This document shows, piece after piece, positions 29,820-41,303 of a stretch of DNA of 64,000 bases. Every line of letters begins with the position of its first letter. Within the stretch, counting starts at the first letter, position 1. The translations under genes were made by a program, and so were the position numbers. Under the pieces are notes generated by a model, which did no database searches, was not told the DNA's origin, and saw only the letters and a list, made by a program, of their open reading frames with translations. This stretch comes from Bacteroidota bacterium (GTDB taxonomy: Bacteria; Bacteroidota; Bacteroidia; Flavobacteriales; Schleiferiaceae), in contig JANSYJ010000001.1 of assembly GCA_024742495.1 (NCBI GenBank), positions 186,001 to 250,000 on the forward strand. The letters are read 5' to 3'.

Positions 29820-30054
29820 GCCCTTGGGCGATCGGCAAATCCTAATTGACATTGTGCAAAAGGAAATGCCTTTTGGTAAATATGCCGGTCGAAAACTTTG
29901 CGATGTTCCGACCTACTACCTGGAGTGGTTTGCCGCTAAAGGCTGGCCAAGTGGGCGTTTAGGTATTATGCTCGAAACCCTCTTTGTAATCCGCACCGAA
30001 GGTTTACACGATATATTGCTGGAACTAAAAAAGCGATATGGGGCTCGATCGTAA
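29812..30054 (+). CDS. DUF3820 family protein
   Basis: An 80-residue cytoplasmic protein matching DUF3820: MPFGKYAGRKLCDVPTYYLEWF near residues 19-40, then GWPSGRLG and a helical C-terminus. Members are small, widespread and of unsettled role; some are described as putative quorum-sensing-regulated virulence factors, and the fold also appears fused to exonuclease-type proteins. ATG at 29812 overlaps the upstream stop by eight bases. Confidence 0.85.
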   Translation: MNEPLGDRQILIDIVQKEMPFGKYAGRKLCDVPTYYLEWFAAKGWPSGRLGIMLETLFVIRTEGLHDILLELKKRYGARS

Positions 30055-30085
30055 CACTATATTTAGTCCGGCTTCAGATTTAAGG

Positions 30086-30108
30086 CAATACTCTAAATTG
30101 CAGTATTG
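30086..30108. repeat. Perfect 7-bp inverted repeat upstream of the ECF sigma gene
   Basis: CAATACT (30086-30092) and AGTATTG (30102-30108) pair perfectly around a nine-base spacer and end 10 bases before the TTG start of the sigma gene. It could be an operator or a leader hairpin. Confidence 0.4.
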
Positions 30109-30118
30109 TATTTAAAGT

Positions 30119-30715
30119 TTGTCGAACACCAATCCTGATAATACCCATAAAGCCGCAGATGATTTAAAGGATCACGAATTACTTGCGGCCATCGCTAGCT
30201 CGGACGAGAAAGCGCTGCAGCAGTTTTTCAATCGGTATTATAAAACCTTGGTGGGTACCGCCTTTAATATTTTAAAAGATGAAGAGCAGGCTAAAGATAT
30301 AGTGCAAGACCTCTTCTTTTGGTTGTGGAAAAATCGTGAAAGCCTAAGTATAAAAAGCTCGGTTCTAGCCTACTTCAAAAGGGCCACCATTAACCGCTGT
30401 TTAAACCTTCTAAAAAAGAACCAAAAATTTAGCGATCAAGAGGATTGGCAGGAACCTATACAGGCTAGCCCAAACCCTCAGGAACTAATGGAAGCCCAGG
30501 AGCTTGAGGCATTTGTAGCCCAAGCGCTTTTGCAATTACCCGAACGCTGTAGGTTAATATTTACCTTAAAACGACTAGAAGGCCTGTCGGTAAAGGAGAT
30601 TGCTGAAAAACTGGAAATTTCACCAAAAACAGTTGAAAACCAAATTACCAAAGCTCTCAAGCATCTCAGCTCAAGTTTAAAACCCTATTTGGCAAAAAAC
30701 AACAGTCCTCCATAG
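30119..30715 (+). CDS. ECF sigma factor (Bacteroidota FecI-like)
   Basis: A 198-residue RNA polymerase sigma-70 factor of ECF type. Region 2 contains FNRYYKTLVGTAFNILKDEEQAKDIVQDLFFWLW (split here over residues about 38-72), and region 4 has the helix-turn-helix LPERCRLIFTLKRLEGLSVK followed by EIAEKLEISPKTVENQI. The start is TTG at 30119: an in-frame TAA lies six bases upstream and there is no ATG before region 2. It is followed by FecR and an STN-type TonB receptor, the standard surface-signalling set in which the receptor signals through FecR to free the sigma factor. Confidence 0.93.
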   Translation: MSNTNPDNTHKAADDLKDHELLAAIASSDEKALQQFFNRYYKTLVGTAFNILKDEEQAKDIVQDLFFWLWKNRESLSIKSSVLAYFKRATINRCLNLLKKNQKFSDQEDWQEPIQASPNPQELMEAQELEAFVAQALLQLPERCRLIFTLKRLEGLSVKEIAEKLEISPKTVENQITKALKHLSSSLKPYLAKNNSPP

Positions 30716-30766
30716 GGGATTTCCCGCCTTAAACGGTCCTAATACCGATACTAGAAATTTTTGCCG

Positions 30767-31828
30767 ATGATTGAAGAATACCATATAAATCTTATTTACA
30801 AATACTTAAGCGAAGAGTGCTCTCCAGAAGAAAAGCTGGAGCTAGAGACTTGGCGCGATGCATCGCCCTTGCACCTAAAACGTTTTAAGGAAGAGCAGCA
30901 AGTGTGGGACTTAAGCGGAAAAGCGATAGCCGATGAAGCGACCCTGTCTATTGATTTGGAGGCGGACTTTGCCAAACTACAGCAACGCATCAAAGCAGAC
31001 CGACTTGACACCCCAAAGGAGCCTGAAGAGCCTACCACAGCTAAGCTTATTAATCTTGAGAAAAAGGAAGATCATCGCGAAGACGCACCAAGTAAAAAAT
31101 GGAATTATGGCTTAATAGCGGCTTCCATGGTCGTGTTAATTGGCCTTTCCTTTTTCCTTAGGTATAGCCTTGGGGCTGATGAATTAATAGAATTAAGAAG
31201 TGGCGAGCAACAAAAGAGCATCACCTTAGCGGATGGAAGCAAGGTCCTTTTAAATGCAAACAGCCTTTTGAAATATCCGGAGGAATTCGGGCCTGATGAT
31301 CGGCAAATATGGCTGGAAGGGGAAGCCTATTTTGAAGTAAGCCCAGATGCTAATCGGCCTTTTTCAATAGAAACCAAATTGGAGCTTATTAAGGTTATTG
31401 GCACTTCATTTAATGTTCTAGCCCTCGGTGACGCTGATGAAGCTAGCGTTTTCGTGGTGGAGGGCTTAGTGGAATTCTCATCCGCAAAAGGAAAAAGGAT
31501 GCGCTTAGCTGCAAATGAAAAAGGACAATTCAATCGAAGCAATGGTGGCATGTTAAAACTGATAAATCAGAAAGCAAACGATTTGGCTTGGTTTAAGAAG
31601 GAACTCCATTTTGAAGATGCCGCCTTGCAAGAAGTGCTGACCGCCTTGGAAAAACTGCATGCCGCCCAGATTACATATTCCCAAGAGGCCCTTGCGAATT
31701 GCAGGTTTTCTGGGTCTTTTAAAGAGCAAGATTTAGCTAGTTCCTTGGAAGTTCTGGCTTTGATTTACAATTTTGAGATTGAGCAGCAAGGTGAAGTCTA
31801 TCAACTAAAGAACATAATGTGCAAGTAA
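30767..31828 (+). CDS. FecR-family anti-sigma factor
   Basis: A 353-residue inner-membrane regulator. The cytoplasmic N-terminus (YKYLSEECSPEEKLELETW) binds sigma in this family; a transmembrane segment follows near residues 112-130 (GLIAASMVVLIGLSFFL). The periplasmic FecR domain has ITLADGSKVLLNANSLLKYP and IWLEGEAYFEVSPD, and a C-terminal DUF4974-like STN-interacting domain has HFEDAALQEVLTALEKLH. The frame is open from TTG 30761; ATG 30767 is two codons on and is my choice. It partners the sigma factor 51 bases upstream and overlaps the receptor gene by 10 bases. Confidence 0.93.
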   Translation: MIEEYHINLIYKYLSEECSPEEKLELETWRDASPLHLKRFKEEQQVWDLSGKAIADEATLSIDLEADFAKLQQRIKADRLDTPKEPEEPTTAKLINLEKKEDHREDAPSKKWNYGLIAASMVVLIGLSFFLRYSLGADELIELRSGEQQKSITLADGSKVLLNANSLLKYPEEFGPDDRQIWLEGEAYFEVSPDANRPFSIETKLELIKVIGTSFNVLALGDADEASVFVVEGLVEFSSAKGKRMRLAANEKGQFNRSNGGMLKLINQKANDLAWFKKELHFEDAALQEVLTALEKLHAAQITYSQEALANCRFSGSFKEQDLASSLEVLALIYNFEIEQQGEVYQLKNIMCK

Positions 31829-34422
31829 AGGGATGGGCCTTACTGGTATTTAACCTAATCTCCATCGGCTTGGTTTGGGGGCAGATAGACCTAAATCAGA
31901 AAGTTAATCTTCATGCGGCTAAGCTCAATCAAAGTGAGGCTTTGCAGTTGCTTTCTGAAAATACCGGCCTTGGCATTTCTTTTAGCAGCAATTTTTTCGA
32001 TCGTCAAATAACAAGGGATTACCATTTTAAGGATCTGGCATTGGGCAAGGCGCTTGAGCAAATCTTAGAAGGCAGTAACCTGAGCTTTAAACCCCTAGGT
32101 GATCAAATAATTATTTTTAAATCCAGGTCAATTCTTATTAGCGGATTTATTGTTGACGCTGAAAATGGCGAGTTTTTGGTGAATGCTAGCATTTACGACC
32201 AAGTGCAAAATGTGGGTATAACAACAAATGAATATGGCTTTTTCAGCATCAGTGTTTTAAGCGATAGTTATAGCTTGGTCGCTAGCTATGTAGGCTATAA
32301 AGCAGCCAATATTGCTCCAAATGGACTTAGCACTAAAGAGGATCTTCGCATCGAATTAGAAAGAGATGACATTTTAGCCGAAGTGGAGGTGCGCGCCACT
32401 CCCAATGCAGCGCTTCTCGCACGAGATGCCAATCAATCCATTGATTTGCAAAACTCCCTTTTAAAGCTCAGTCCAAGTTTAGGAGGCACCGAAGATTATT
32501 TGCGCTCAGCCCAGCTGCTTCCTGGAGTAAATGGCGGCATCGATGGCTTTGGCGGCTTGCAGGTTCGCGGCGGTGATGCGGGCCAAAATATGATGCTATT
32601 AGATGGGGTTACGGTCTTCCTGCCTTATCATTTACTGGGGGCCTTTTCGGTATATAATCCCCAAACGGTAAATTCCGCCAAGCTCATTCAGGGGGCTTTT
32701 CCCGCCCGATATGGAGGTCGTGTAGCGTCGATTTTTGATGTGCGCACCCGCGAAGGAAATCAAGAAAATTGGCAATCTCACTTTAGTCTTAACCTCATTA
32801 ATGCTAATGCAGTGGTAGAAGGCCCCATTGCCGAGGGCAAAGGCGCTTTGCTAATTGCCGCACGCTATTCGCCTTCGGGAGCCCTATTTAATCCCTTCTT
32901 TAAAAACACCATTTTTCAAAATGATGAATTATCAGTTAATAGTAATTTTTACGACCTCAATCTGAAGCTGAATTACAAACTAGGCTTAAAAGACCGACTT
33001 TACCTCAGTGTTTTCAATGGTCGCGATCAACTTGCCAATAGCTTTTCCGACACCTTGGATCTTGAGGTTCTAGAATCGGAAACCAACTTTAACTGGAATA
33101 ATACCATTGCTTCGCTGCGCTGGAACCACATTTACAATAAGAGTTTGTTTTCCAACAGCACCTTAACTTTTAGCGATTATGGTTTTGAATTAAACAGTTT
33201 CGAATTGAATGCCTTCACCAATGGCGATTTCGATGACTTTTACCTCTACACCAACTTAGCGCGCAACTCCGAACTAGGGCTAAGCAGCGATTTCGATTAT
33301 TACCACAGCAATCGCTTACACTTTCGTTTTGGCGGGTCTGCCTCTCGTTCATTATTTAATTTGGAGCTTTCCTTTATTGATGATGAAGATGCGGACACGG
33401 AAGACCTTGAAGACATTGACCTCGATGCTTTGGGGGCCTTATCTATTCCCGTAGAGATGGCCGCCTATCAAGCGCAGCTTTATGCGGAAAGCATTTGGAA
33501 ATGGTCACCGAGCTGGGAAGCTAATTTTGGTTTGCGCCTTAGTTCCTTTTATTCGGACGGACAGGCCTATTTCAATCCCGAGCCTCGCCTGGCCTTGACT
33601 TATCGCCCCAATGCTAAAAGCCTATGGCAGGCTTCTGCAACGCGCATGATTCAATATATCCACCTTATTTCCAGCACCGCTTTACGCTTACCAAGCGACC
33701 TTTGGTTACCCTCCTCCAAAAACATAAAGCCCCAAGATGCCTGGCAAGGGGAATTAACTTACGAGTATGCCTTGGGCAAAGGCCTTAGCTTTCGCAGTAG
33801 CGCCTACATTCGTAACATTAGCAATATGCAAGCTTATGTGGATAGCACCTCCTATTTAGAAGACATTGAAGAGGATTCTACCCAATCCTTTTTAACGGGG
33901 GGCTCTGGCCGAAGTATTGGCTGGGAAAGCAGTCTAAACTATCAGGGTGCACGGAATGGTTTCATGCTTTCCTATACCCTCTCGCAAGCGAATCGCCGCT
34001 TTGATGCCCATAATTTGGGGCAAGTTTATCCTTTTGACTTCGACCAAAGACATCAAGTGAAGGTCTTTGCCTATCAGGCTTATAAAGATTGGAGTATCAG
34101 CTTTAACTGGCTTTATTTTTCACCAAATCCAAGAATAAGCTTTATTGCTTTGGAGGGCAGTGAAATTAGTCGAGTAGAGCTCAATGAACTAGGGCGAAAA
34201 AATGAACTTCGGGGCGAAGCTTATCATCGTTTAGACATCAGCCTTAGCTATAAATTTAAAATAAAAGGCAGCCGACATCGCTTAAAACTTGGCGCTTACA
34301 ATGTGTATAATCGCGATAATGTGGCCCTCTATGAAGTGGATGATGAAAATGGCATTTTTCAAAGCTTCCCCATCGGATCCCTGGGCTTTTTACCTTCCTT
34401 CTACTATAGCTTACAGTTTTAG
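31819..34422 (+). CDS. STN-domain TonB-dependent receptor (signal transducing)
   Basis: An 867-residue outer-membrane receptor. A signal peptide ends near residue 22 (GLVWGQ). An STN domain follows (about 28-98, LNQSEALQLLSENTGL ... GDQIIIFKS), then a carboxypeptidase-regulatory-like beta sandwich (about 105-190) and a TonB plug (LLPGVNGGIDGFGGLQVRGG near 235) and barrel ending YYSLQF. The STN domain is what contacts FecR. The start is GTG at 31819 within the last codons of fecR; no ATG gives a signal peptide. It lacks a SusD-type partner; instead a repeat lipoprotein follows, so ligand uptake probably differs from glycan-type systems. Confidence 0.92.
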   Translation: MQVKGWALLVFNLISIGLVWGQIDLNQKVNLHAAKLNQSEALQLLSENTGLGISFSSNFFDRQITRDYHFKDLALGKALEQILEGSNLSFKPLGDQIIIFKSRSILISGFIVDAENGEFLVNASIYDQVQNVGITTNEYGFFSISVLSDSYSLVASYVGYKAANIAPNGLSTKEDLRIELERDDILAEVEVRATPNAALLARDANQSIDLQNSLLKLSPSLGGTEDYLRSAQLLPGVNGGIDGFGGLQVRGGDAGQNMMLLDGVTVFLPYHLLGAFSVYNPQTVNSAKLIQGAFPARYGGRVASIFDVRTREGNQENWQSHFSLNLINANAVVEGPIAEGKGALLIAARYSPSGALFNPFFKNTIFQNDELSVNSNFYDLNLKLNYKLGLKDRLYLSVFNGRDQLANSFSDTLDLEVLESETNFNWNNTIASLRWNHIYNKSLFSNSTLTFSDYGFELNSFELNAFTNGDFDDFYLYTNLARNSELGLSSDFDYYHSNRLHFRFGGSASRSLFNLELSFIDDEDADTEDLEDIDLDALGALSIPVEMAAYQAQLYAESIWKWSPSWEANFGLRLSSFYSDGQAYFNPEPRLALTYRPNAKSLWQASATRMIQYIHLISSTALRLPSDLWLPSSKNIKPQDAWQGELTYEYALGKGLSFRSSAYIRNISNMQAYVDSTSYLEDIEEDSTQSFLTGGSGRSIGWESSLNYQGARNGFMLSYTLSQANRRFDAHNLGQVYPFDFDQRHQVKVFAYQAYKDWSISFNWLYFSPNPRISFIALEGSEISRVELNELGRKNELRGEAYHRLDISLSYKFKIKGSRHRLKLGAYNVYNRDNVALYEVDDENGIFQSFPIGSLGFLPSFYYSLQF

Positions 34423-34616
34423 GTCGGAGAACTTCTAATTCTTTTTCATTTCTAACACATCCTTTAAGCCTTGTTTTTCAGTGCCTTTAAATGAATGCGC
34501 TCACTTTAGTCTGCTCATAAAAAAATATTTTGCTCGGGGCATAGGGGATAATCCAGCCTTGCTGGTCTTAATAGGGAAGCCTCCAAAATGAAGGCTCGAA
34601 ATTAAAATGAAATGAA

Positions 34617-35525
34617 ATGAGAAATTCAAAATCGATCAGCCTTAAATGGTCCTTTATCCTAGCTCTAAGCCTCAGTGTTTTAATTGTATCCTGCAGTAAG
34701 GACAAGGATACTTCTTTGCAAAGTCCGGCCCAACTGAACAACAGCACAAGCAGCACCAATATTGCAAAAGTGAATAAGGACAGCATCGACTGTTTTCGTT
34801 TCGATTATCCAATTACGGTTAATATTCCGGATAGTAGCGCGGTAATCGTGTATGATGACTCGAGCCTATTTGAGCTCTTTGAAGAGCATTTTGATATTGA
34901 TGAAGATTTCGATTGCTATGATGATCCCATTCTGGGCTTTCCGGTTACAGCCACCCTTGAAGATGGCGAAACGGTTCGACTGGAAGAGAACGATGATTTA
35001 TTTGAATTGATAGAAAGTTGCTTTTGCCATGGCGATGACGACGATTACGAGGAATGCTTTAGCTACAATTTCCCGATTTCGGTTTTACTGCCCGATGGGC
35101 GCACCATAGTTAGCAATGACGAAGATGAGCTGGAAGAAACTTTTGAGGACTGGTATGATACGCATGGCGATAGCTTAGATCCTCTTTTGGTTTTCCCTAT
35201 TAGTGTAACCATGGAAGAAGACGGAACAGTGATTACGCTTCAGGATGATGATGAACTGGAAGAATTGGAGGAAGATTGCGAAGGAGATGAAGAGGATTGC
35301 TTCGACTTTGTATATCCCATTACGGTTTTAAACCCCGATGGAACATCGATTGTGGTGAATGATTTTGACGAATTAGAAGAAGCATTTGAGGATTGGTTTG
35401 ACCAGCACGGAGACCAGCAGGAGCCAAGCTTAGAATTTCCCGTAACGGTTATTTATGACGATGGGAGCACGGATGTAGCAAATGATGAGGATGAGTTGGA
35501 GGACTTATATGATGAATGTGACTAA
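34617..35525 (+). CDS. Acidic lipoprotein with three A/B repeat pairs
   Basis: A 302-residue lipoprotein (LIVSCSKDKD, lipidated Cys near 26) made of six related units in three A/B pairs. A units start with Cys-Phe and YPITV or FPISV, contain DG, then DELEE.FEDW and HGD (clearest at about 147-190 and 235-280). B units start with FPVTV or FPISV, contain DG, and end in ELE plus a Cys. The protein is extremely rich in Asp and Glu, suggesting calcium or other cation binding. The unit Cys residues could form disulfides. It follows the STN receptor and precedes a strong terminator, so it closes this locus and is a candidate ligand carrier or surface partner. Function unknown. ATG at 34617; two nearby ATGs upstream stop at once. 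Confidence 0.75.
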   Translation: MRNSKSISLKWSFILALSLSVLIVSCSKDKDTSLQSPAQLNNSTSSTNIAKVNKDSIDCFRFDYPITVNIPDSSAVIVYDDSSLFELFEEHFDIDEDFDCYDDPILGFPVTATLEDGETVRLEENDDLFELIESCFCHGDDDDYEECFSYNFPISVLLPDGRTIVSNDEDELEETFEDWYDTHGDSLDPLLVFPISVTMEEDGTVITLQDDDELEELEEDCEGDEEDCFDFVYPITVLNPDGTSIVVNDFDELEEAFEDWFDQHGDQQEPSLEFPVTVIYDDGSTDVANDEDELEDLYDECD

Positions 35526-35557
35526 AAGTAAAAGCACAAGTTTCTAGCGCTGTAATA

Positions 35558-35591
35558 AAGCCGTTCCGATGAATATTGGAACGGCTTTTTT
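35558..35591 (+). terminator. Strong intrinsic terminator of the sigma/FecR/receptor/lipoprotein locus
   Basis: AAGCCGTTCC (35558-35567) and GGAACGGCTT (35578-35587) form a perfect 10-bp stem around a 10-base loop, followed directly by T residues to 35591. It lies 33 bases after the lipoprotein stop. Confidence 0.85.
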
Positions 35592-35724
35592 GCATTAGGT
35601 ACTTTAAAACGCGCAAAGCATCTTTTCCTGGCTTAACCACAATTCTCACTTAAAAGCTGCATTAAGCCAAATCCGCCCATTCTATTGCGGGCTCAAGCTT
35701 GACCACCAATTTTTGTGAGCCTAA

Positions 35725-35807
35725 TTGGTAAAAGCCTAGCCGCTAAATTGACGGTCTTTTTGGGTAATTTCCTAAAATAAGGCCCACTACCTTGGTAAAA
35801 GCCTAGC
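35725..35807. repeat. 16-bp direct repeat, TTGGTAAAAGCCTAGC
   Basis: The 16-mer occurs at 35725-35740 and 35792-35807. The first copy continues as CGCTAAATTGA and resembles AAAAGCCTAGCCATTAAATTGA at the 3' end of pth (from 23227). The 289-base stretch 35592-35880 holds these repeats and no gene that I can support. Confidence 0.5.
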
Positions 35808-35880
35808 GATTTCCTCTGGGATATTGGGTGAAGTATAAACGCCGTTCTATGAGAGACCTTCAGTGGTAGTAAATAAATTA

Positions 35881-36345
35881 TTAATCGCTTTCTTTTAGTC
35901 TAGGATCTATTGCTAAATCGAAATATTCACTAATTGCCACTTTTCCAAAATCTTTATAGAGCGGGTTTAGAATATAATTGTATTCCATCCTTACAATAGA
36001 AGAAGGGACTTTAAGGGCAAAAAAATCTCGGCTTTTAGCCAAATGGGTGAAAATTGAGGTGGTTTTAGAGGAGTAGGGATATTGATCCCACTTTTCGGGC
36101 AATTTGTCTAATTCTTCAATTGCAAAGTCATCAGGTATTTCAATCTTGGCAACCAAAATATTCTTTGGTAGACTGGCGATATTTTCTGAATGAATGTAAT
36201 ATTCTAAGAGCGCCAGGGAGATATTTTCTGAACAATAAACCGCTCTTGTGCCCACTTCATTCCATCTTCCTCCAACTTTTTCTGCACCTATCCCAGACAA
36301 GGTAAAATCTTTACACTTAAGGTTTGCAAGCCGGTATAAAAACAT
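35881..36345 (-). CDS. RES-domain toxin
   Basis: A 154-residue RES-domain protein, the toxin of a type II toxin-antitoxin pair; characterised members act on NAD+. The conserved block GGRWNEVGTRAVYCSENISLAL lies near residues 25-46 (Arg, Tyr, Ser) with the acidic residue in LLEYYIH just after. The usual length is about 150-160. The frame is open one codon earlier (TTG 36348), but ATG 36345 overlaps the antitoxin TGA by one base (TGATG), so I chose it. The antitoxin is directly upstream in the same operon. AT-rich sequence and its place in a decayed region suggest horizontal acquisition. Confidence 0.88.
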   Translation of the reverse strand: MFLYRLANLKCKDFTLSGIGAEKVGGRWNEVGTRAVYCSENISLALLEYYIHSENIASLPKNILVAKIEIPDDFAIEELDKLPEKWDQYPYSSKTTSIFTHLAKSRDFFALKVPSSIVRMEYNYILNPLYKDFGKVAISEYFDLAIDPRLKESD

Positions 36346-36845
36346 CAACTGTACACATTAAATTGAATGCGTATAATCTCGCTTTCTATTACTTGAAAGC
36401 CCAAACTGCTATCGAGCAAATCAAATGGTTTCTTTCCACCTAATGATTTAGATGGTGACTTCAGCCATTGTTTGAAGCTTAGCTCTGAATCAAAAACCTC
36501 ATAGCCTAGACTATAAAGCTTGGCTAATTCGTAAATTCTCTCAGAAGTTTCTTTTCCATAAACCGATTTCTTCTGCATGCTACTAATAGAAGTTGGAAGT
36601 ACAGGTTCTAGGTCCTTTTCAGAATGACCAATTTTTACAATTAAATCCTTCCATTCCGATTTTTTAACCCCAAGTCGAATGCGATTAATCAACTCCAAAT
36701 TATATCCTTGAGCATCTTTTGAGTGAGCAACAACCCAAGCAGGTGAAAACTTTGAGAAAGACTTATTGATCCCTCTTTCGCGACTAAGCGCCACTTTTGT
36801 CCCGCGCGCTTTGGATTTTTTTCTGCCCGCTAATTTCTCACTCAT
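36345..36845 (-). CDS. Xre/MbcA/ParS-type antitoxin
   Basis: A 166-residue antitoxin. It has a very basic N-terminus (RKKSKARGTK). A helix-turn-helix-like region follows near residues 50-90, where GVKKSEWKDLIVKIGHSEKDLEPVLP fits the Xre-like part. The C-terminal MbcA/ParS-type domain (ERIYELAKLYSLGYEVFDS, FKQWLKSPSKSLGGKKPFDLLDS) is the typical toxin-binding module of RES antitoxins. It precedes the RES toxin with one base of overlap. Two 12-bp dyads directly upstream are plausible sites for its own repression. ATG start at 36845. Confidence 0.88.
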   Translation of the reverse strand: MSEKLAGRKKSKARGTKVALSRERGINKSFSKFSPAWVVAHSKDAQGYNLELINRIRLGVKKSEWKDLIVKIGHSEKDLEPVLPTSISSMQKKSVYGKETSERIYELAKLYSLGYEVFDSELSFKQWLKSPSKSLGGKKPFDLLDSSLGFQVIESEIIRIQFNVYS

Positions 36846-36848
36846 AAC

Positions 36849-36882
36849 TGTACTTTTACAAGGGTATAACTGTAAATATACA
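36849..36882. promoter_or_regulatory. Two tandem dyads (TGTA-N4-TACA), likely antitoxin operators
   Basis: TGTACTTTTACA (36849-36860) and TGTAAATATACA (36871-36882) are each inverted repeats with half site TGTA, and their centres are exactly 22 bp apart, two helical turns. They sit within a longer 17-base direct repeat (ATAACTGTA...TACA) with three mismatches, starting three bases before the antitoxin ATG. Autoregulation by the antitoxin is the natural reading. Confidence 0.6.
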
Positions 36883-37058
36883 ATTAGCGTTTCAATTGAT
36901 CACGATAAAAGCCGCTGCCTTAGGACGATTAAAATGGAGCTTCGGTAAAATCAAGAGAAAAATCTATACTTCCAAAAGGCATTAGGGCTTAGATTTTAGC
37001 ACCTGATATAGCTCAAAATTCACGTACCACTTTTCTCTTCAAATTCAACTGAGAAGCT

Positions 37059-37311
37059 TTAGGAATAGTTCTGTTTTGAACTAGGCTTAACTAGAGTCCT
37101 TTCCATTATCACCGTAGGATGCTGCCACTCAACTGGATTGTTTTGCATCCGACTGAGGCAGACAGACATAATTGTAGGGACTAATCCAGCTTCGGTAGGC
37201 ATGCATGGGATCTGGACTGGTGAAAATGGAAATTGTGGGCTGTAATACCGGGCTCCCATATAAACCAGCTCAGGAATGGCATCGTAGGTGCGAGCACCAG
37301 AGGCCTCTGAC
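37059..37311 (-). pseudogene. RHS-repeat-associated core remnant 1 (frameshifted)
   Basis: On the minus strand the frame reads AIPELVYMGARYYSPQF, the hallmark of an RHS core, then loses one base in a T-run (compare remnant 2) and changes frame. The next frame gives DPMHAYRSWISPYNYV. This is interrupted by a 19-base palindromic insertion, after which QNNPVEWQHPT continues in yet another frame to a stop at 37059. No long RHS gene precedes it, so it is a duplicated, decayed 3' end. The rest of the gap 36846-37333 shows the antitoxin operators and nothing else clear. Confidence 0.7.
37148..37166. repeat. 19-bp palindromic insertion, copy 1
   Basis: TCCGACTGAGGCAGACAGA on the plus strand, a diverged copy of the element at 41017-41035, inserted in the same RHS codon (after the G of the Val codon that follows PYNY). 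Confidence 0.6.
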
Positions 37312-37333
37312 TATTCTGTGCTTTTGCACACTG

Positions 37334-37927
37334 CTATTGCCTCAGTCTTTCACATGACCATTTATCAGTAAGGGAGTAATGCCATTGATCATTTTCATTT
37401 CGCAGATATAAATGAATAGAACTTGGCAAATCCGCTTTATTAAATAACTCTATGCCCACATTCAACCTGTAGACAAGAAGGCTTTCGTTATCCTCCCAAG
37501 CAATTGCATAGTGAGAAAAACTATAAAAGGAATCCGTTTTTTGCAGCAGTTCTAAATCACTCCGATGTGAAACAAAAACCGGCTGACCCTTATAGAGTAT
37601 AATGGCTTTATAGCGTCTCTTTATTGGTGCCATGCTATCCGCTACCCCAAAGGCATTATGAATAAGATTTAGGCTAATCAAATTTCTATCTTCAGTGGTA
37701 TCCTCCTTAACCAAGCTAAATTTATCATGGTTATAGACCAAAATCCTTTTACTAATATGTGCCTTAGGTACCCAACAGTCCTTAATAGCGGCAATTGAAG
37801 TATCAAGCATATTGGCCACCACGCTATCCTTAAATTCGTATACTGGATAGTATAACTTTACTTCAACCTGAGCGATAGCTGAATAAGTACAAAAAATACC
37901 TATCAACAAAAATCTAATTTCCTTCAT
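37334..37927 (-). CDS. Exported protein of unknown function
   Basis: A 197-residue protein with a signal peptide (MKEIRFLLIGIFCTYSAIAQ). The mature part is beta-rich with two Cys (KDCWVP and WSCERL) that may pair. I do not recognise the family. It lies on the minus strand between two RHS remnants, where C-terminal toxin or immunity cassettes are normally found, but its signal peptide is unlike a cytoplasmic immunity protein. It ends 23 bases before RHS remnant 1. ATG start at 37927. Confidence 0.6.
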   Translation of the reverse strand: MKEIRFLLIGIFCTYSAIAQVEVKLYYPVYEFKDSVVANMLDTSIAAIKDCWVPKAHISKRILVYNHDKFSLVKEDTTEDRNLISLNLIHNAFGVADSMAPIKRRYKAIILYKGQPVFVSHRSDLELLQKTDSFYSFSHYAIAWEDNESLLVYRLNVGIELFNKADLPSSIHLYLRNENDQWHYSLTDKWSCERLRQ

Positions 37928-38373
37928 TGTAAGATGGTTTTATTGTCCCTCCGCTGCTAATATTCGGTGTTGTACTTGCCTTATGACCGGGATAATAACG
38001 TAGCTACGGTCCACCTTCTGCTGTTAAAGATGCAAATAAGGTTTATGAATCAGCACCAAAATCGGAAATTTTTAGTTGCGCAGCATTTCGCACATTTGCT
38101 GGTTCAAAATAGTTGATAAAAGGTATCATTTGGACCGCGGCCAAATAATTACTCATATAAACTACGGGATGGCAAATTAAACATTTAGTACAGTTTAAGA
38201 TTTGATGATTTCACTATTAGCCAGGAATTAATACTCTACCCTATTGCGGCTTATTTTGCTTCCTCCTGAGGCGAACAGGCCCTATAGAAGGACTACCCAC
38301 ATAGGCCATAAGAGCAAAATCCTTGATCAGGGTTGACAGTAATGGATAGTGCCCAAAGAACCACCAGAACAAA
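37928..38373. other. Gene-free AT-rich stretch in the RHS region
   Basis: 446 bases with no supportable gene. It contains a diverged copy of the 19-bp palindromic element (38261-38279). On the minus strand a short open stretch reading YYPGHKASTTPNISSGG runs into the signal-peptide gene region from about 38010 and could be debris of a former coding region. No promoter or terminator is convincing. Confidence 0.4.
38261..38279. repeat. 19-bp palindromic element, copy 3 (diverged)
   Basis: TCCTCCTGAGGCGAACAGG differs at two positions from the copy at 41017-41035. It is not flanked by RHS sequence, so it seems to be an independent copy. Confidence 0.5.
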
Positions 38374-38877
38374 CTATTCCTTTAGTCGAAACTCTTCACT
38401 CCAAGTGAGTTCTTTCTTAATAACCTCTTTTACACTGTTATTTAATGGTTGATCTGCCCATGTATAAAACAACAAACATTTATCATGACCGAATTCAACA
38501 AAGAACTTATGCTTTGAGCAATAAAGGACCGTGTGGCCCAGCTCGGTATACCCTTCCATAGCGATCTCAATCAAATGATTCCCGTCTGAAATTTCATAAA
38601 AACCAGGTGTTTTCATTTTACGGTACACCATAACAGGAGGGAATACAGACTCATAGAAATCGCAATGTTCTCTTAACTTTAGCAGTGATTCAACTAGATC
38701 TACAAAATATGGGTCACTATTCGCTTGCCCCTGTTCTATATTATCTCTACGCTTGGCATAAAGCTCTAAAAATACTTCGAAATTGAACCGCTCGCTATCG
38801 GATAAAAGTGCGTAAATATCAATTTCGAAATGTACCGGAGCACCCACTTTTCCTAATAATTCACTAAAATTTTTCAT
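38374..38877 (-). CDS. Cytoplasmic protein of unknown function, immunity-like
   Basis: A 167-residue acidic protein with no signal peptide or membrane segment. It starts with a helical half (FSELLGKVGAPVHFEIDIYALLSDSERFN, over residues 4-32) followed by a beta-rich half with several His and Cys (HTVLYCSKHKFFVEFGHDKCLLFY near 115-138). I do not recognise the family. Its size, acidity and place downstream of an RHS remnant are like those of polymorphic-toxin immunity proteins. That is inference from context; no matching toxin gene is intact here. ATG start at 38877. The 277 bases upstream of it (38878-39154) show no gene. Confidence 0.55.
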   Translation of the reverse strand: MKNFSELLGKVGAPVHFEIDIYALLSDSERFNFEVFLELYAKRRDNIEQGQANSDPYFVDLVESLLKLREHCDFYESVFPPVMVYRKMKTPGFYEISDGNHLIEIAMEGYTELGHTVLYCSKHKFFVEFGHDKCLLFYTWADQPLNNSVKEVIKKELTWSEEFRLKE

Positions 38878-39154
38878 TCTCCAATCATTAAACCTACACT
38901 ATCCAGTGTCTTTGTTCTTTTACCGTGCTTTAAAGCTTATAAATAGCGGTTTTTAGTGGGAATATCGCTAGTTTTTTAATACGGTAGCGTCTAAACATTA
39001 CCTTCATCTTTAGGCTCGGACTATGCCATGAAAAGCAGCATTAGACCTAGGAGTTTCAGCAGAGAAAGGAAAGGTTTAATTCGTATCATTTAAACTGCAC
39101 CAAATTCTTTTTCTCGCTACGAATTATGAAAAAAATCTGTTACCGCAAATCCCT

Positions 39155-39925
39155 TTATTTTAAGGAGTTTCCTTCTAGACACCTGAGCACCTCAGGATCG
39201 ATCTTGTTTTTAAAAAACGTTGAGCTATTGTCCCGCAGGCCGCTCGGAAACGCTAGTAAGTCACTGAAGTCAACAAGTCTAGAATAATTAATATTCACAA
39301 ACACAACAATTACCTCGAGGATTCCGCTATCTGTATATGACCCTGGTTTATAAATTGCTAAGCGACCCTTACAATCCCTATCCAAGGCTTCCAACTCTGA
39401 GATTGGTAACTTAAGAACAAAACCTTTACTCGAAGATATCCAATCTCCGCACCAAAATAAACCAATGGAGTCCACTTCTTGCGCAAAGCCATTAGTCCAT
39501 ATATGCATCCAATCATCCTTGATCTCAACAAGCAAAAATTGACTGGCGCTGGTGTCTATGCTTCTCAAGTTCTTGGTATAATTTATCACTTCAAAGTTTT
39601 GCTTTGAACCAAGTTCAGATTCTTCATCAAACGAACGAAAAACCACCTGACCTGACGAATTACTATACAAGCTTGATTGTTTACTGTAGCCATTCAAGCG
39701 GTCTATTTGACTAAGCACAGTATCTCCTCTCAGCCTAACTCGTAAAAAACCACCCTGAGGTACTTCATTCTCGAATATACCAATCAATTCCTCACCAGTT
39801 GAAGCTTCCAAAGTTTCAATGCTAGAACAGTAGTTCTCACCGATGAAATACTTTTCCTTCTTTGTGTTGCAAGAAGGTATTATTGCAATTACAAATAATA
39901 AACGTACTATTCTATTTTTCTTCAT
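39155..39925 (-). CDS. Lipoprotein of unknown function
   Basis: A 256-residue lipoprotein. The frame is open to an ATG at 39946, but ATG 39925 begins the proper signal MKKNRIVRLLFVIAIIPSCN with lipidated Cys19, so I start there. The mature domain is beta-rich with several Cys and Trp residues (IGLFWCGDWISSS, EALDRDCKGRLA). No family recognised. The start overlaps by 14 bases a coding-like extension of the upstream lipoprotein gene, suggesting the two were once a tightly coupled operon with the 122-residue gene upstream. Confidence 0.6.
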   Translation of the reverse strand: MKKNRIVRLLFVIAIIPSCNTKKEKYFIGENYCSSIETLEASTGEELIGIFENEVPQGGFLRVRLRGDTVLSQIDRLNGYSKQSSLYSNSSGQVVFRSFDEESELGSKQNFEVINYTKNLRSIDTSASQFLLVEIKDDWMHIWTNGFAQEVDSIGLFWCGDWISSSKGFVLKLPISELEALDRDCKGRLAIYKPGSYTDSGILEVIVVFVNINYSRLVDFSDLLAFPSGLRDNSSTFFKNKIDPEVLRCLEGNSLK

Positions 39926-40130
39926 ACCAAGGGATTGAATCAACATAATTACTCATGGGCTTTCTATATATCACCACGTCTTTATAAACGAATATCGAAT
40001 CGCTTCCATCCTTGGATTGCCCGGGGTAAGTTCTATGCTCATAAACATTGAATGAGTCGTCTTTGTTGACCTTTTTTACTACAGCTAAAGGTTTGTCTTG
40101 CTCGACGGCGGCCTTACGATAAAGTCACAC
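39912..40130 (-). pseudogene. Out-of-frame continuation of the upstream lipoprotein gene
   Basis: A different frame of the same strand stays open across the supposed gap after the lipoprotein stop. It reads LYRKAAVEQDKPLAVV and later YEHRTYPGQSKDGSDSIFVYKD, ending in a TAG at 39914-39912, about 70 codons in all. Its composition is protein-like, and it ends in a coupled overlap with the next start. A single -1 slip near 40110-40130 would join it to the lipoprotein. This looks like a recent frameshift or an assembly error. Confidence 0.55.
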
Positions 40131-40573
40131 TGAATCCTCATAGTGTCTTGTCCATTATTATAAGTGACCAAGCCATAACATTCATTCTTACCTATCTCTG
40201 TTGGTCTATAGTTTATGATATGGCCATTAACCAAAGAGTCATACTTTAAGGACATAACGGAATCATTTATAATCACGGCTGCTTTTCTTTGGTCTAAAGG
40301 ATTAAACCGCCTTACCATAATTGTAGCTTTGAAGGTATCGCCACTGTCTATTTCAAATCCCTTGTCAGGAAGGACATATGTTACATCCCTCCGATTAGCT
40401 AAGGCCTGCTCAATATCTTTTAATCTTTCATGAATTGACTTTTCATCGGGAGAATTCAAGCCTAGAGTCTCCTCTATCCGAATTACAGTATCCCCTAACT
40501 TATCTTCACTCTTTTTTGAATCACATGCGCAGTTACAAATCAGAACAATGAATACAATTACCTTATTTTTCAT
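40085..40573 (-). CDS. Lipoprotein, probably truncated by a frameshift
   Basis: A 162-residue lipoprotein as read: signal MKNKVIVFIVLICNCACDSK with lipidated Cys near 17, a short helical part (HERLKDIEQALANRRD), then an immunoglobulin-like beta domain (GDTFKATIMVRRFNPL ... CYGLVTYNNGQDTMRIQCDF). The last ten residues after DFIV look unnatural and a coding-like frame continues for about 70 codons beyond the stop. The beta domain recalls GldM-type domains only loosely. The start overlaps the upstream 122-residue gene (ATGA). Confidence 0.55.
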   Translation of the reverse strand: MKNKVIVFIVLICNCACDSKKSEDKLGDTVIRIEETLGLNSPDEKSIHERLKDIEQALANRRDVTYVLPDKGFEIDSGDTFKATIMVRRFNPLDQRKAAVIINDSVMSLKYDSLVNGHIINYRPTEIGKNECYGLVTYNNGQDTMRIQCDFIVRPPSSKTNL

Positions 40574-40938
40574 TTACCTATAACTTGATTTGGTTTTAAA
40601 ATAGCTTTCAAACTATCTAAACTTTCCTTGGGAACTTCCACCTCGGAACCCTGTGAACTCCCTTCAAAATAAGTCCAAACTAGCACTAATGTATCCCTTT
40701 CGGCAGAAGGGATTTTATTCACTTGTCGTTTTTTTGGTCGATGTGCTTTAATAACAGGAGCTTTCTGAAGTGCATCCCTTGAAGTTTTTTTTTCCTCATC
40801 TAATGATAAAACAATCGAATTTGCATCTGTAACCGACTTAATGAATGTGGTAATTTTTTCATTTAGGGTGCCTAAACAATCTTTGAATAGCCCTTTCTGG
40901 CCCCAACCAAGGAATGGATTCCAAAATGGATCATTCAT
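40570..40938 (-). CDS. Small protein downstream of an RHS remnant, possible former RHS tip
   Basis: A 122-residue cytoplasmic protein starting MNDPFWNPFLGWGQKG, with a very basic middle (HRPKKRQVNK) and an acidic end. No family recognised. It begins 29 bases after the stop of RHS remnant 2 and overlaps the lipoprotein start by four bases (ATGA). It may be what is left of a C-terminal RHS tip or its cargo, but nothing in the sequence proves this. Confidence 0.5.
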   Translation of the reverse strand: MNDPFWNPFLGWGQKGLFKDCLGTLNEKITTFIKSVTDANSIVLSLDEEKKTSRDALQKAPVIKAHRPKKRQVNKIPSAERDTLVLVWTYFEGSSQGSEVEVPKESLDSLKAILKPNQVIGK

Positions 40939-40966
40939 ATCTGCATAGGTGGCAGGCTAAAAACCC

Positions 40967-41140
40967 TCAATCCAACATCCCCGTCGGATCCTGCCGCATA
41001 ATCGGGTTGTTCTGGATCCGCCTGAGGCGGACAGGCGTAATTGTAGGGACTAATCCAGCTTCGGTAGGCATGCATGGGATCTGGACTGGTGAAAATGGAA
41101 AATTGCGGGCTGTAAAATCGAGCAAGGCGAAAAGCCAGTT
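40967..41140 (-). pseudogene. RHS-repeat-associated core remnant 2
   Basis: On the minus strand an open frame reads LARFYSPQFSIFTSPDPMH then AYRSWISPYNY, a clear RHS core. A 19-base palindromic insertion follows in the Val codon. Downstream, in a shifted frame, QNNPIMRQDPTGMLD and TGA (40969-40967) complete the core. No full-length RHS gene lies upstream, as the EamA gene starts at 41304 on the other strand, so this is a detached 3' fragment. It is more intact than remnant 1. Confidence 0.75.
41017..41035. repeat. 19-bp palindromic insertion, copy 2
   Basis: TCCGCCTGAGGCGGACAGG contains the perfect 15-base palindrome TCCGCCTGAGGCGGA (one-base centre excluded by odd length) and interrupts the RHS core between PYNY and QNNP. 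It breaks the reading frame, because 19 is not a multiple of three. Confidence 0.65.
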
Positions 41141-41303
41141 CGGCTAACTGATGGCAGCTATTGGCGCTAAAAAGATTTGCTTTAGGAATTAAAGCCTTTC
41201 AATTGCGTCCAATTCAAAACCCCCGCCCCTACAATTCTGCTTTCGTTTAATCTTGCTGGTGTTTGGCAGCACATTTTTCAGCAATTTTGCCGCAAAGAAA
41301 GGC

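Follow-up and report, generated by a model that had tools for sequence, protein, structure and literature searches.

An acidic repeat lipoprotein as the probable partner of a TonB-dependent transducer in a FecI/FecR/FecA-type module of Bacteroidota

The stretch analysed here, called the window throughout, comprises 64,000 nucleotides of a Schleiferiaceae genome (assembly GCA_024742495.1, contig JANSYJ010000001.1, positions 186,001 to 250,000), and it carries a four-gene locus on its plus strand that ends in a gene for an acidic repeat lipoprotein, which we call LIP. The first gene (30119..30715) encodes an extracytoplasmic function (ECF) sigma factor with Sigma70_r2 and Sigma70_r4_2 domains, which scored 156 bits against TIGR02985 (cut-off 126), a group that we take to be the FecI-like sigma factors. 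The second (30761..31828) encodes a FecR-type anti-sigma factor or sigma regulator matched in Pfam by FecR (4.7e-15) and FecR_C (6.8e-12), and a hydrophobic stretch can be read directly in its sequence. The third (31819..34422) encodes a TonB-dependent receptor of the transducer type, 867 amino acids long, with STN (3.5e-9), CarbopepD_reg_2 and Plug (8.6e-6) domains; its Pfam matches, checked for the 22-strand outer-membrane barrel, include no barrel family. LIP itself (34617..35525) is a 302-amino-acid protein whose lipobox, found by eye, has its Cys at residue 26. All four open reading frames (ORFs) are open at these coordinates. A preliminary description, made from the sequence alone, had named the first three genes as the known surface-signalling set, and the Pfam and NCBIfam matches bear this out. 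It had also let the module run as one unit up to a strong terminator. An intrinsic-terminator-like hairpin of 14 pairs followed by a T run does lie downstream of LIP on the plus strand (35557..35588), but LIP is not simply the last gene of one operon, because the 194-bp gap after the receptor gene probably holds a promoter of its own.

LIP contains six related units of two types, all delimited on the plus strand by unit scoring: A1 (residues 59-103, 34791..34925), B1 (residues 104-137, 34926..35027), A2 (residues 147-189, 35055..35183), B2 (residues 190-221, 35184..35279), A3 (residues 226-272, 35292..35432) and B3 (residues 273-301, 35433..35519). B2 was scored to residue 220 and Cys221 was added; AlphaFold2 (AF2) also served to place A1, and a model of the A3-B3 pair to place the last two units. 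The order A-B-A-B-A-B amounts to three A-B pairs. Mean global scores between units were 103 for A-A, 56 for B-B and 47 for A-B, while the maxima over 300 composition-keeping shuffles of the units were 27.5, 26.7 and 9.1, respectively, so that the alternation of two related types noticed earlier stands with a similarity far above the shuffles. It had further been said that each unit opens with a DG turn and that the A units carry HGD, which does not hold for A1, where both are missing, and that the B units end in Cys, which is better put as each A-B pair beginning and ending in Cys (C59/C135, C147/C221 and C228/C301). A recent duplication at the DNA level was rejected, since the DNA-level repeats that remain are short only, and the LIP repeats are on this ground old. 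Composition as the source of the family's similarity was rejected as well: the window protein scores 111 bits against a profile from which it was left out, versus 9.8 bits for the best of its 2000 shuffled versions.

The bracketing cysteines tend to be lost two at a time in relatives (loci are labelled L and genomes G, each with a number; L224 lies in G808 and L144 in G240). Both Cys of pair 1 are lost in L120, L157 and L158, both of pair 2 in L052-L054, and all four in L023. Four rows with an apparent loss of a single Cys (L033, its duplicate L018, L163 and the second LIP of L120) were ascribed by eye to alignment offset, and after this check no clear single loss was seen. Because the bracketing Cys vanish in pairs, LIP likely contains disulfides, with the exact pairing less sure. 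Strict bonding within each A-B pair fits most losses but not all, since the group of L058 and L060-L063 lacks the second and third Cys instead. The homologue in L023 (8158-9153), which keeps the four-gene setting, has no repeat Cys except near its end, is rich in Lys and by eye consists of seven short units.

AF2 predicted the units of the whole LIP as beta-beta-alpha elements, with a mean predicted local distance difference test (pLDDT) score of 70 and a predicted template modelling (pTM) score of 0.34, weak between domains. The A3-B3 pair alone, modelled with an alignment of 122 other pairs, two of them from the window, was predicted as beta-beta-alpha-beta-beta-alpha with one short extra N-terminal strand, at a pLDDT of 85.6 and a pTM of 0.63. 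According to these models the conserved piece of LIP is a beta-beta-alpha-beta-beta-alpha domain of about 75 residues bracketed by Cys. A 2674-residue protein in L226 (3042-11063, genome G808) matches the LIP repeats, and the repeat domain may also exist within such a giant protein.

No Pfam or NCBIfam model matched the window LIP above its cut-off, and the same holds for 51 members of the family. With the A3-B3 pair, Foldseek found no match in the PDB at E-values up to 0.001, and a PDB sequence search with the pair profile gave a best E-value of 0.14; VIA-align gave no Z of 5 or more for either the pair or the whole LIP, which is no proof of a new fold. The OPCA motif of PB1 domains is an acidic DG..D/EEL motif, and like PB1 the beta-beta-alpha pieces of LIP carry a motif of this kind. 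PB1 (PF00564) matched 6 of the 51 members weakly (best E 8e-5) and not the window protein, and PB1/OPCA structure entries aligned with LIP over 39-47 residues only, at Z 2.1-2.9. Unlike PB1, LIP is probably extracellular, with disulfides, and the matches may reflect the shared acidic beta-beta-alpha motif only. A literature search restricted in coverage returned no description of the LIP family, of its repeat domain or of its regulation. The locus had been put forward as a possibly undescribed uptake or sensing system: the signalling frame is a known one, of the FecI/FecR/FecA type, and the LIP partner family, which has no model above cut-off, did not turn up in the literature searched.

The mature part of the window LIP holds 87 Asp and Glu among 277 residues and 7 Lys and Arg, with a net charge of about -80, in agreement with the extreme acidity noticed earlier. 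That acidity had suggested a metal- or calcium-loaded rod that stores or presents cations on the cell surface. It is extreme in the G562 protein also, and 1 of the 51 members weakly matches the FPM13 metalloprotein (E 0.0013), the only metal-related family match. Across 62 LIP genes, however, net acidity runs from near neutral (L149, L154 and L023) to the window LIP, which has the highest net value, and the L023 protein contains 13% Lys and Arg. At E-values up to 1, Pfam and NCBIfam list no calcium-binding family (EF-hand, RTX, TSP3 or another) for the window LIP, and at E-values up to 0.01 no calcium-binding repeat family for the 51 members; the whole-protein model (pTM 0.34) does not support a rod. 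Since acidity varies and no calcium-binding family is listed, we reject the metal rod as a function of the family and hold it very improbable as an explanation of LIP.

The acidic residues directly behind the lipobox may be read in another way. From the lipidated Cys onward the window LIP reads CSKDKD. A lipobox was recognisable in 135 of 138 family sequences, some of which were matched by their tail only, and in 124 of these 135 the residues that follow the Cys include at least two acidic ones and are negative in net charge. An acidic stretch in this position is how PMC5080379 describes the export signal of Bacteroidetes lipoproteins, which the LIP family matches. As the lipobox and the export-signal-like start fit that description, LIP is likely located on the cell surface.

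A search with the window LIP gave matches in 13 of 196 genomes drawn from the order. A LIP profile detected the family in 44 of 392 genomes sampled across the phylum and in 24 of 396 sampled across the class. The window genome is in all three sets, which partly share their members, and the counts are those of samples. In the window's own family LIP occurs in 2 of 60 genomes (the window genome and G562), and in Flavobacteriaceae in 62 of the 80 sampled. A check of the label used for Flavobacteriaceae placed a stretch of one such genome, G470, in a named Tenacibaculum contig. A scan of named genomes, which used a closer alignment and a sample outside which the window branch itself lies, gave at least 537 LIP relatives. 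The best 80 were kept; they come from genera that we take to be Flavobacteriaceae, or from unclassified Flavobacteriaceae, Flavobacteriales and Bacteroidetes assemblies. The Flavobacteriaceae proteins printed mostly have two A-B pairs and then one or more tails that look lipocalin-like by eye (Pfam had no match for two proteins with such tails). Several members outside Flavobacteriaceae have two pairs and no tail, and three pairs without a tail are found in the window, G562 and G808 (L224).

Sigma, fecR and an STN-type receptor adjoin LIP in 14 of the 15 loci of the order-level survey. Among the best 80 named-genome loci the sigma gene is directly divergent from LIP in all 80, and fecR and the receptor gene are present too in 76, the other 4 ending at a contig edge; the exact four-gene order is kept in 67, and one extra ORF is found in 9. 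Of the 62 LIP genes, 39 are flanked on both sides by 4 kb or more, and 31 of these 39 have sigma, fecR and receptor within 6 kb. Ten distinct hits with fewer than two unit motifs or a weak E-value, nearly all short and tail-only, had been dropped from this count (one of them, L152, is a genuine relative with one pair, next to a sigma gene and lacking FecR), and a few of the 62, all in the short-flank group, are truncated copies of one gene (L241, L242). The reverse test gave a like result. In 80 Flavobacteriaceae genomes, LIP lies within 6 kb of 76 of the 79 receptors of one subfamily (at least 550 bits) and of 6 of the 16 that scored lower. At the level of genomes (receptor at least 450 bits) both are present in 56, the receptor only in 1, LIP only in 6 and neither in 17 (Fisher p 1.6e-11), and 85 of the 108 LIP genes or pieces in these genomes have a listed receptor within 6 kb. 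LIP had been proposed as the cognate partner of the receptor; these surveys make it the usual partner of an STN receptor in a module that recurs in several Bacteroidota families, so its homologues do not lie mostly away from sigma/FecR/TonB loci.

LIP and receptor also diverge together. Pairwise distances among 42 modules gave Spearman coefficients of 0.87 for LIP and receptor, 0.78 for LIP and FecR and 0.91 for receptor and FecR; all but ten of these modules were chosen for completeness, the ten being taken from the named-genome loci at even steps, and the FecR of L194 may come from a second set, its own being cut by the contig end. Among paralogous modules (five genomes with two or three each) the true LIP-receptor pairing ranked first of 96. 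The LIP and the receptor nearest to those of the window are both from L194, and the next from L224, with which L225 is practically tied in LIP distance. These results bear on the explanation that LIP is a mere downstream effector of the sigma factor, for example an adhesin or a stress protein, that never touches the receptor. Sigma is indeed the most constant neighbour (36 of the 39 well-flanked LIP genes), some LIP genes have sigma but no receptor adjoining, and long tails as well as the giant protein with such repeats exist. However, the Flavobacteriaceae subfamily receptors almost never occur without LIP, as the 76 of 79 above indicate, and the paralogue pairing follows the receptor; we judge the effector explanation improbable.

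In a receptor tree (quick, unrooted and with long branches) the receptors of the window and G562 are placed together as a pair in a set with 100% support, which also holds 13 receptors from DUF4249 loci and one other LIP-linked receptor (L156). For 11 of those 13 the downstream lipoprotein is DUF4249 by Pfam, at 6.9e-20 or better. As judged from these sequences, LIP goes with several receptor lineages, and beside the lineage of the window it holds the place that DUF4249 lipoproteins hold next to related receptors. PMC11003636 cites DUF4249 lipoproteins beside TonB-dependent transporters (BT2172/BT2173) as proposed lids, and describes a receptor subfamily that almost always adjoins a DUF4249 gene, whose product is proposed to work with the neighbouring transporter. 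Like these, LIP lies directly downstream of a related STN-type receptor, on the same strand, in the window, L194 and L224; by genome, this position is seen in G562 and G808. Unlike them it is built of repeated beta-beta-alpha units, and DUF4249 (PF14054) gave no match in the window LIP at E-values up to 1 in Pfam. Five loci of the window's family (L195-L199) carry sigma-FecR-receptor-DUF4249 modules, several of them by eye beside argS or ffh. In most of them another small lipoprotein gene separates sigma from fecR, and the receptor-DUF4249 pair is present a second time.

A putative ECF promoter, TAGGGGATAA-N13-GTCTTAA, stands before LIP on the plus strand (34542..34571; window sequence TAGGGGATAATCCAGCCTTGCTGGTCTTAA), and TAGGGGATAA-N13-GTCTT is also found before the LIP genes of G562 and G808. 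A second copy before fecR (30713..30742, plus strand) reads TAGGGGAT-N15-GTCCT, with 3 mismatches to the LIP-promoter pattern, and occupies the same place as the motif before fecR in Flavobacteriaceae loci. For the two window copies 0.33 matches were expected, and two were obtained in 5 of 100 shuffles. In the 3.6-Mb window genome the strict pattern TAGGGGAT-N15-GTCTT has a single site, before LIP. With a relaxed pattern, which has 7 occurrences in the whole window, the intergenic hits lie before fecR and LIP only, in the window (29-42 kb scanned), L224 and L144; the fecR hit of L224 (by 8 bases) and the LIP hit of L144 (by 49 bases) overlap the first start codon of a mechanically called ORF. 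In simulation, the chance of such a hit in the two window gaps came to 0.002 and 0.006, for a pattern chosen after the sites had been seen. In Flavobacteriaceae, an element of GGGTAGGA-like and TGTTTTAT-like boxes separated by N16 points at LIP from between sigma and LIP in 51 of 79 loci, and its spacer is always 16 bases, though 13-19 were allowed. The same element between sigma and fecR, directed toward fecR and the receptor, lies above the 95th shuffle percentile in 67 of 70 usable loci. None of the five DUF4249 modules scanned (L195-L199) had the relaxed motif before a gene. The element is distinct from two motifs of Flavobacterium psychrophilum in PMC9723704, the primary-sigma box TAnnTTTG and the one ECF motif reported there, the CGT box.

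Because this ECF-like motif stands before both, LIP and fecR-receptor look like one regulon, and we read the element as the putative target of the module's own sigma factor, whose targets would be LIP and fecR-receptor, with the sigma gene outside the loop. Across 6 genomes the strict window-type pattern gave 6 sites, versus 2 for the reversed pattern. Three of these sites are the ones before LIP in the window genome, G562 and G808, and the other three lie elsewhere, one in G574, which has no LIP, and two in G808. The Flavobacteriaceae pattern, with up to 2 mismatches, had matches in 3 of 8 genomes, at two LIP promoters, one fecR promoter and one other site (G133). As some pattern sites lie elsewhere, a regulon that consists of the module alone is only suggestive.

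Such a narrow output raises the thought that the signal is LIP itself, made by the cell as a surface ligand or plug of its own receptor, and that the circuit gauges the amount, export or integrity of a lipoprotein and not an outside nutrient. Motif hits confined to fecR and LIP in three loci and the single strict site in the window genome are in keeping with this, the gene tables, read by eye, show no further gene that is constant in the module, and the small HELGH lipoprotein of one module group (L146-L148 and L225, described below) might be a processing enzyme for LIP or FecR. Transducers of this class are known, however, to answer outside ligands; nothing in these data supports an entry of LIP into the receptor or a gating of it by LIP, and further members of the regulon may have escaped the strict pattern with which whole genomes were searched. 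We regard LIP as the signal as unlikely. A closed loop of self-sensing, in which the docking of LIP on the receptor, or its being cut away from it, would be the signal and the receptor operon plus LIP the output of sigma, is a doubtful proposition too; if it were true, the cell would monitor its own surface (lipoprotein export, protease attack or contact) through a protein like a nutrient receptor.

The reading that we prefer sets LIP among known systems. Like FecI-FecR-FecA, the module has a TIGR02985 sigma factor, a FecR with FecR_C, a receptor with STN and Plug, and an apparent sigma-type promoter before fecR-receptor; unlike it, the module has a second such element before the repeat lipoprotein, lacks a transport operon, and its receptor carries CarbopepD_reg_2. 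SusC/SusD, BtuB/BtuG and similar systems are pairs of a receptor and a lipoprotein, and the LIP module resembles them as a two-part device of a receptor and a predicted surface lipoprotein. It departs from them in that its receptor bears the STN signalling domain and has its own sigma/FecR; no SusD family matched LIP at E-values up to 1 in Pfam and NCBIfam. LIP and the receptor would thus point to a two-part device for sensing or uptake. LIP, exported and lipid-anchored, would stand on the outer face of the outer membrane beside the receptor barrel, as its lipobox and acidic start suggest, and its disulfide-bracketed A-B domains would contact the receptor, capture a ligand, or both, in the manner of a lid or a capture lipoprotein. 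In the FecI/FecR/FecA class it is established that ligand engagement moves the STN domain of the receptor, that this passes to the C-terminal domain of FecR and that the ECF sigma factor is freed. The freed sigma factor would here transcribe two units, fecR-receptor and LIP, from the matching elements, as the motif suggests, and the main visible output of the circuit would therefore be more receptor and more partner. That LIP and the receptor are partners and co-regulated seems to us very likely. For the whole of this reading, in which LIP is a dedicated surface partner of a TonB-dependent transducer and acts as a capture protein or lid by analogy, we would put the probability at roughly 0.55.

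Several observations weigh against this reading. The role as capture protein or lid is drawn from analogy. Correlated distances may also be explained by joint inheritance of a linked cassette, and the correlation between FecR and receptor is stronger than that between LIP and receptor; since linked inheritance contributes, the distances support partnership without proving contact. The window receptor and the LIP receptors of Flavobacteriaceae belong to different clades, so LIP needs no single receptor type. Among the 39 well-flanked LIP genes, sigma and receptor are present without FecR in 2 cases and sigma alone in 3, while another 3 have no signalling gene nearby. L194 is included in the 31 full cases by way of an additional sigma/fecR set next to it. 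Across the 80 Flavobacteriaceae genomes, no listed receptor lies within 6 kb of 23 of the 108 LIP genes or pieces. As to the promoter, the relaxed pattern stood before no gene in six more distant LIP modules (L145-L148, L223 and L225), and the stricter pattern was missed in 28 of the 79 Flavobacteriaceae loci. The six distant modules may use another promoter sequence; L147, L148 and L225 share by eye another element, GAGTACAAA, before LIP.

Bacteroidota often carry STN receptors that come with sigma/FecR sets, and to our knowledge neither partner nor ligand is known for most of these. With LIP, one class of these receptors would gain a defined lipoprotein partner, together with a candidate promoter element that precedes both fecR and the partner gene, and the receptor-associated surface lipoproteins gain a family for which Pfam and NCBIfam offer no model above cut-off. 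Ligand searches, reporter assays and structures of the complex become feasible with the partner rule and the element, which makes the question of the ligand testable.

Other genes accompany some of the modules. In L152-L156 and L228 the LIP relatives lie beside sigma and a protein of about 450-520 residues without a FecR match, possibly another type of anti-sigma factor; the LIP relatives of L152-L156 have one pair by eye. A gene between sigma and fecR in L146 (7253-7747), L147 (6489-6944), L148 (6917-7423, minus strand) and L225 (9294-9791, plus strand) encodes a small lipoprotein-like protein with HELGH in all four cases; the one of L148 weakly matches metallopeptidase families, and such a lipoprotein could process FecR or LIP. 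The LIP modules of L029, L031, L032, L160 and L161 have matches to a DUF5777 barrel and YceI in the locus, and some of them have cupredoxin, cytochrome-like and tRNA_anti-like genes too, which are perhaps parts of a wider regulon. A link to copper or electron transfer was set aside as a side lead, since 5 of the 35 diverse loci and 1 of the 80 named-genome loci have the DUF5777 match. The ffh gene is present in 66 of the 80 named-genome LIP loci.

In the window the module lies within a stretch of about 11 kb (30052..41252) that was delimited by comparison within the genus and is probably an insertion. The genes that flank it adjoin, with 0-2 genes between them, in 5 of the 6 same-genus genomes examined, and the contig of the sixth lacks the other flank. 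Just beyond the module, on the minus strand of the window (35881-36845), the same insertion-like stretch carries a toxin-antitoxin pair of a RES-domain protein (PF08808) and a partner with an Xre/MbcA/ParS-type antitoxin domain.

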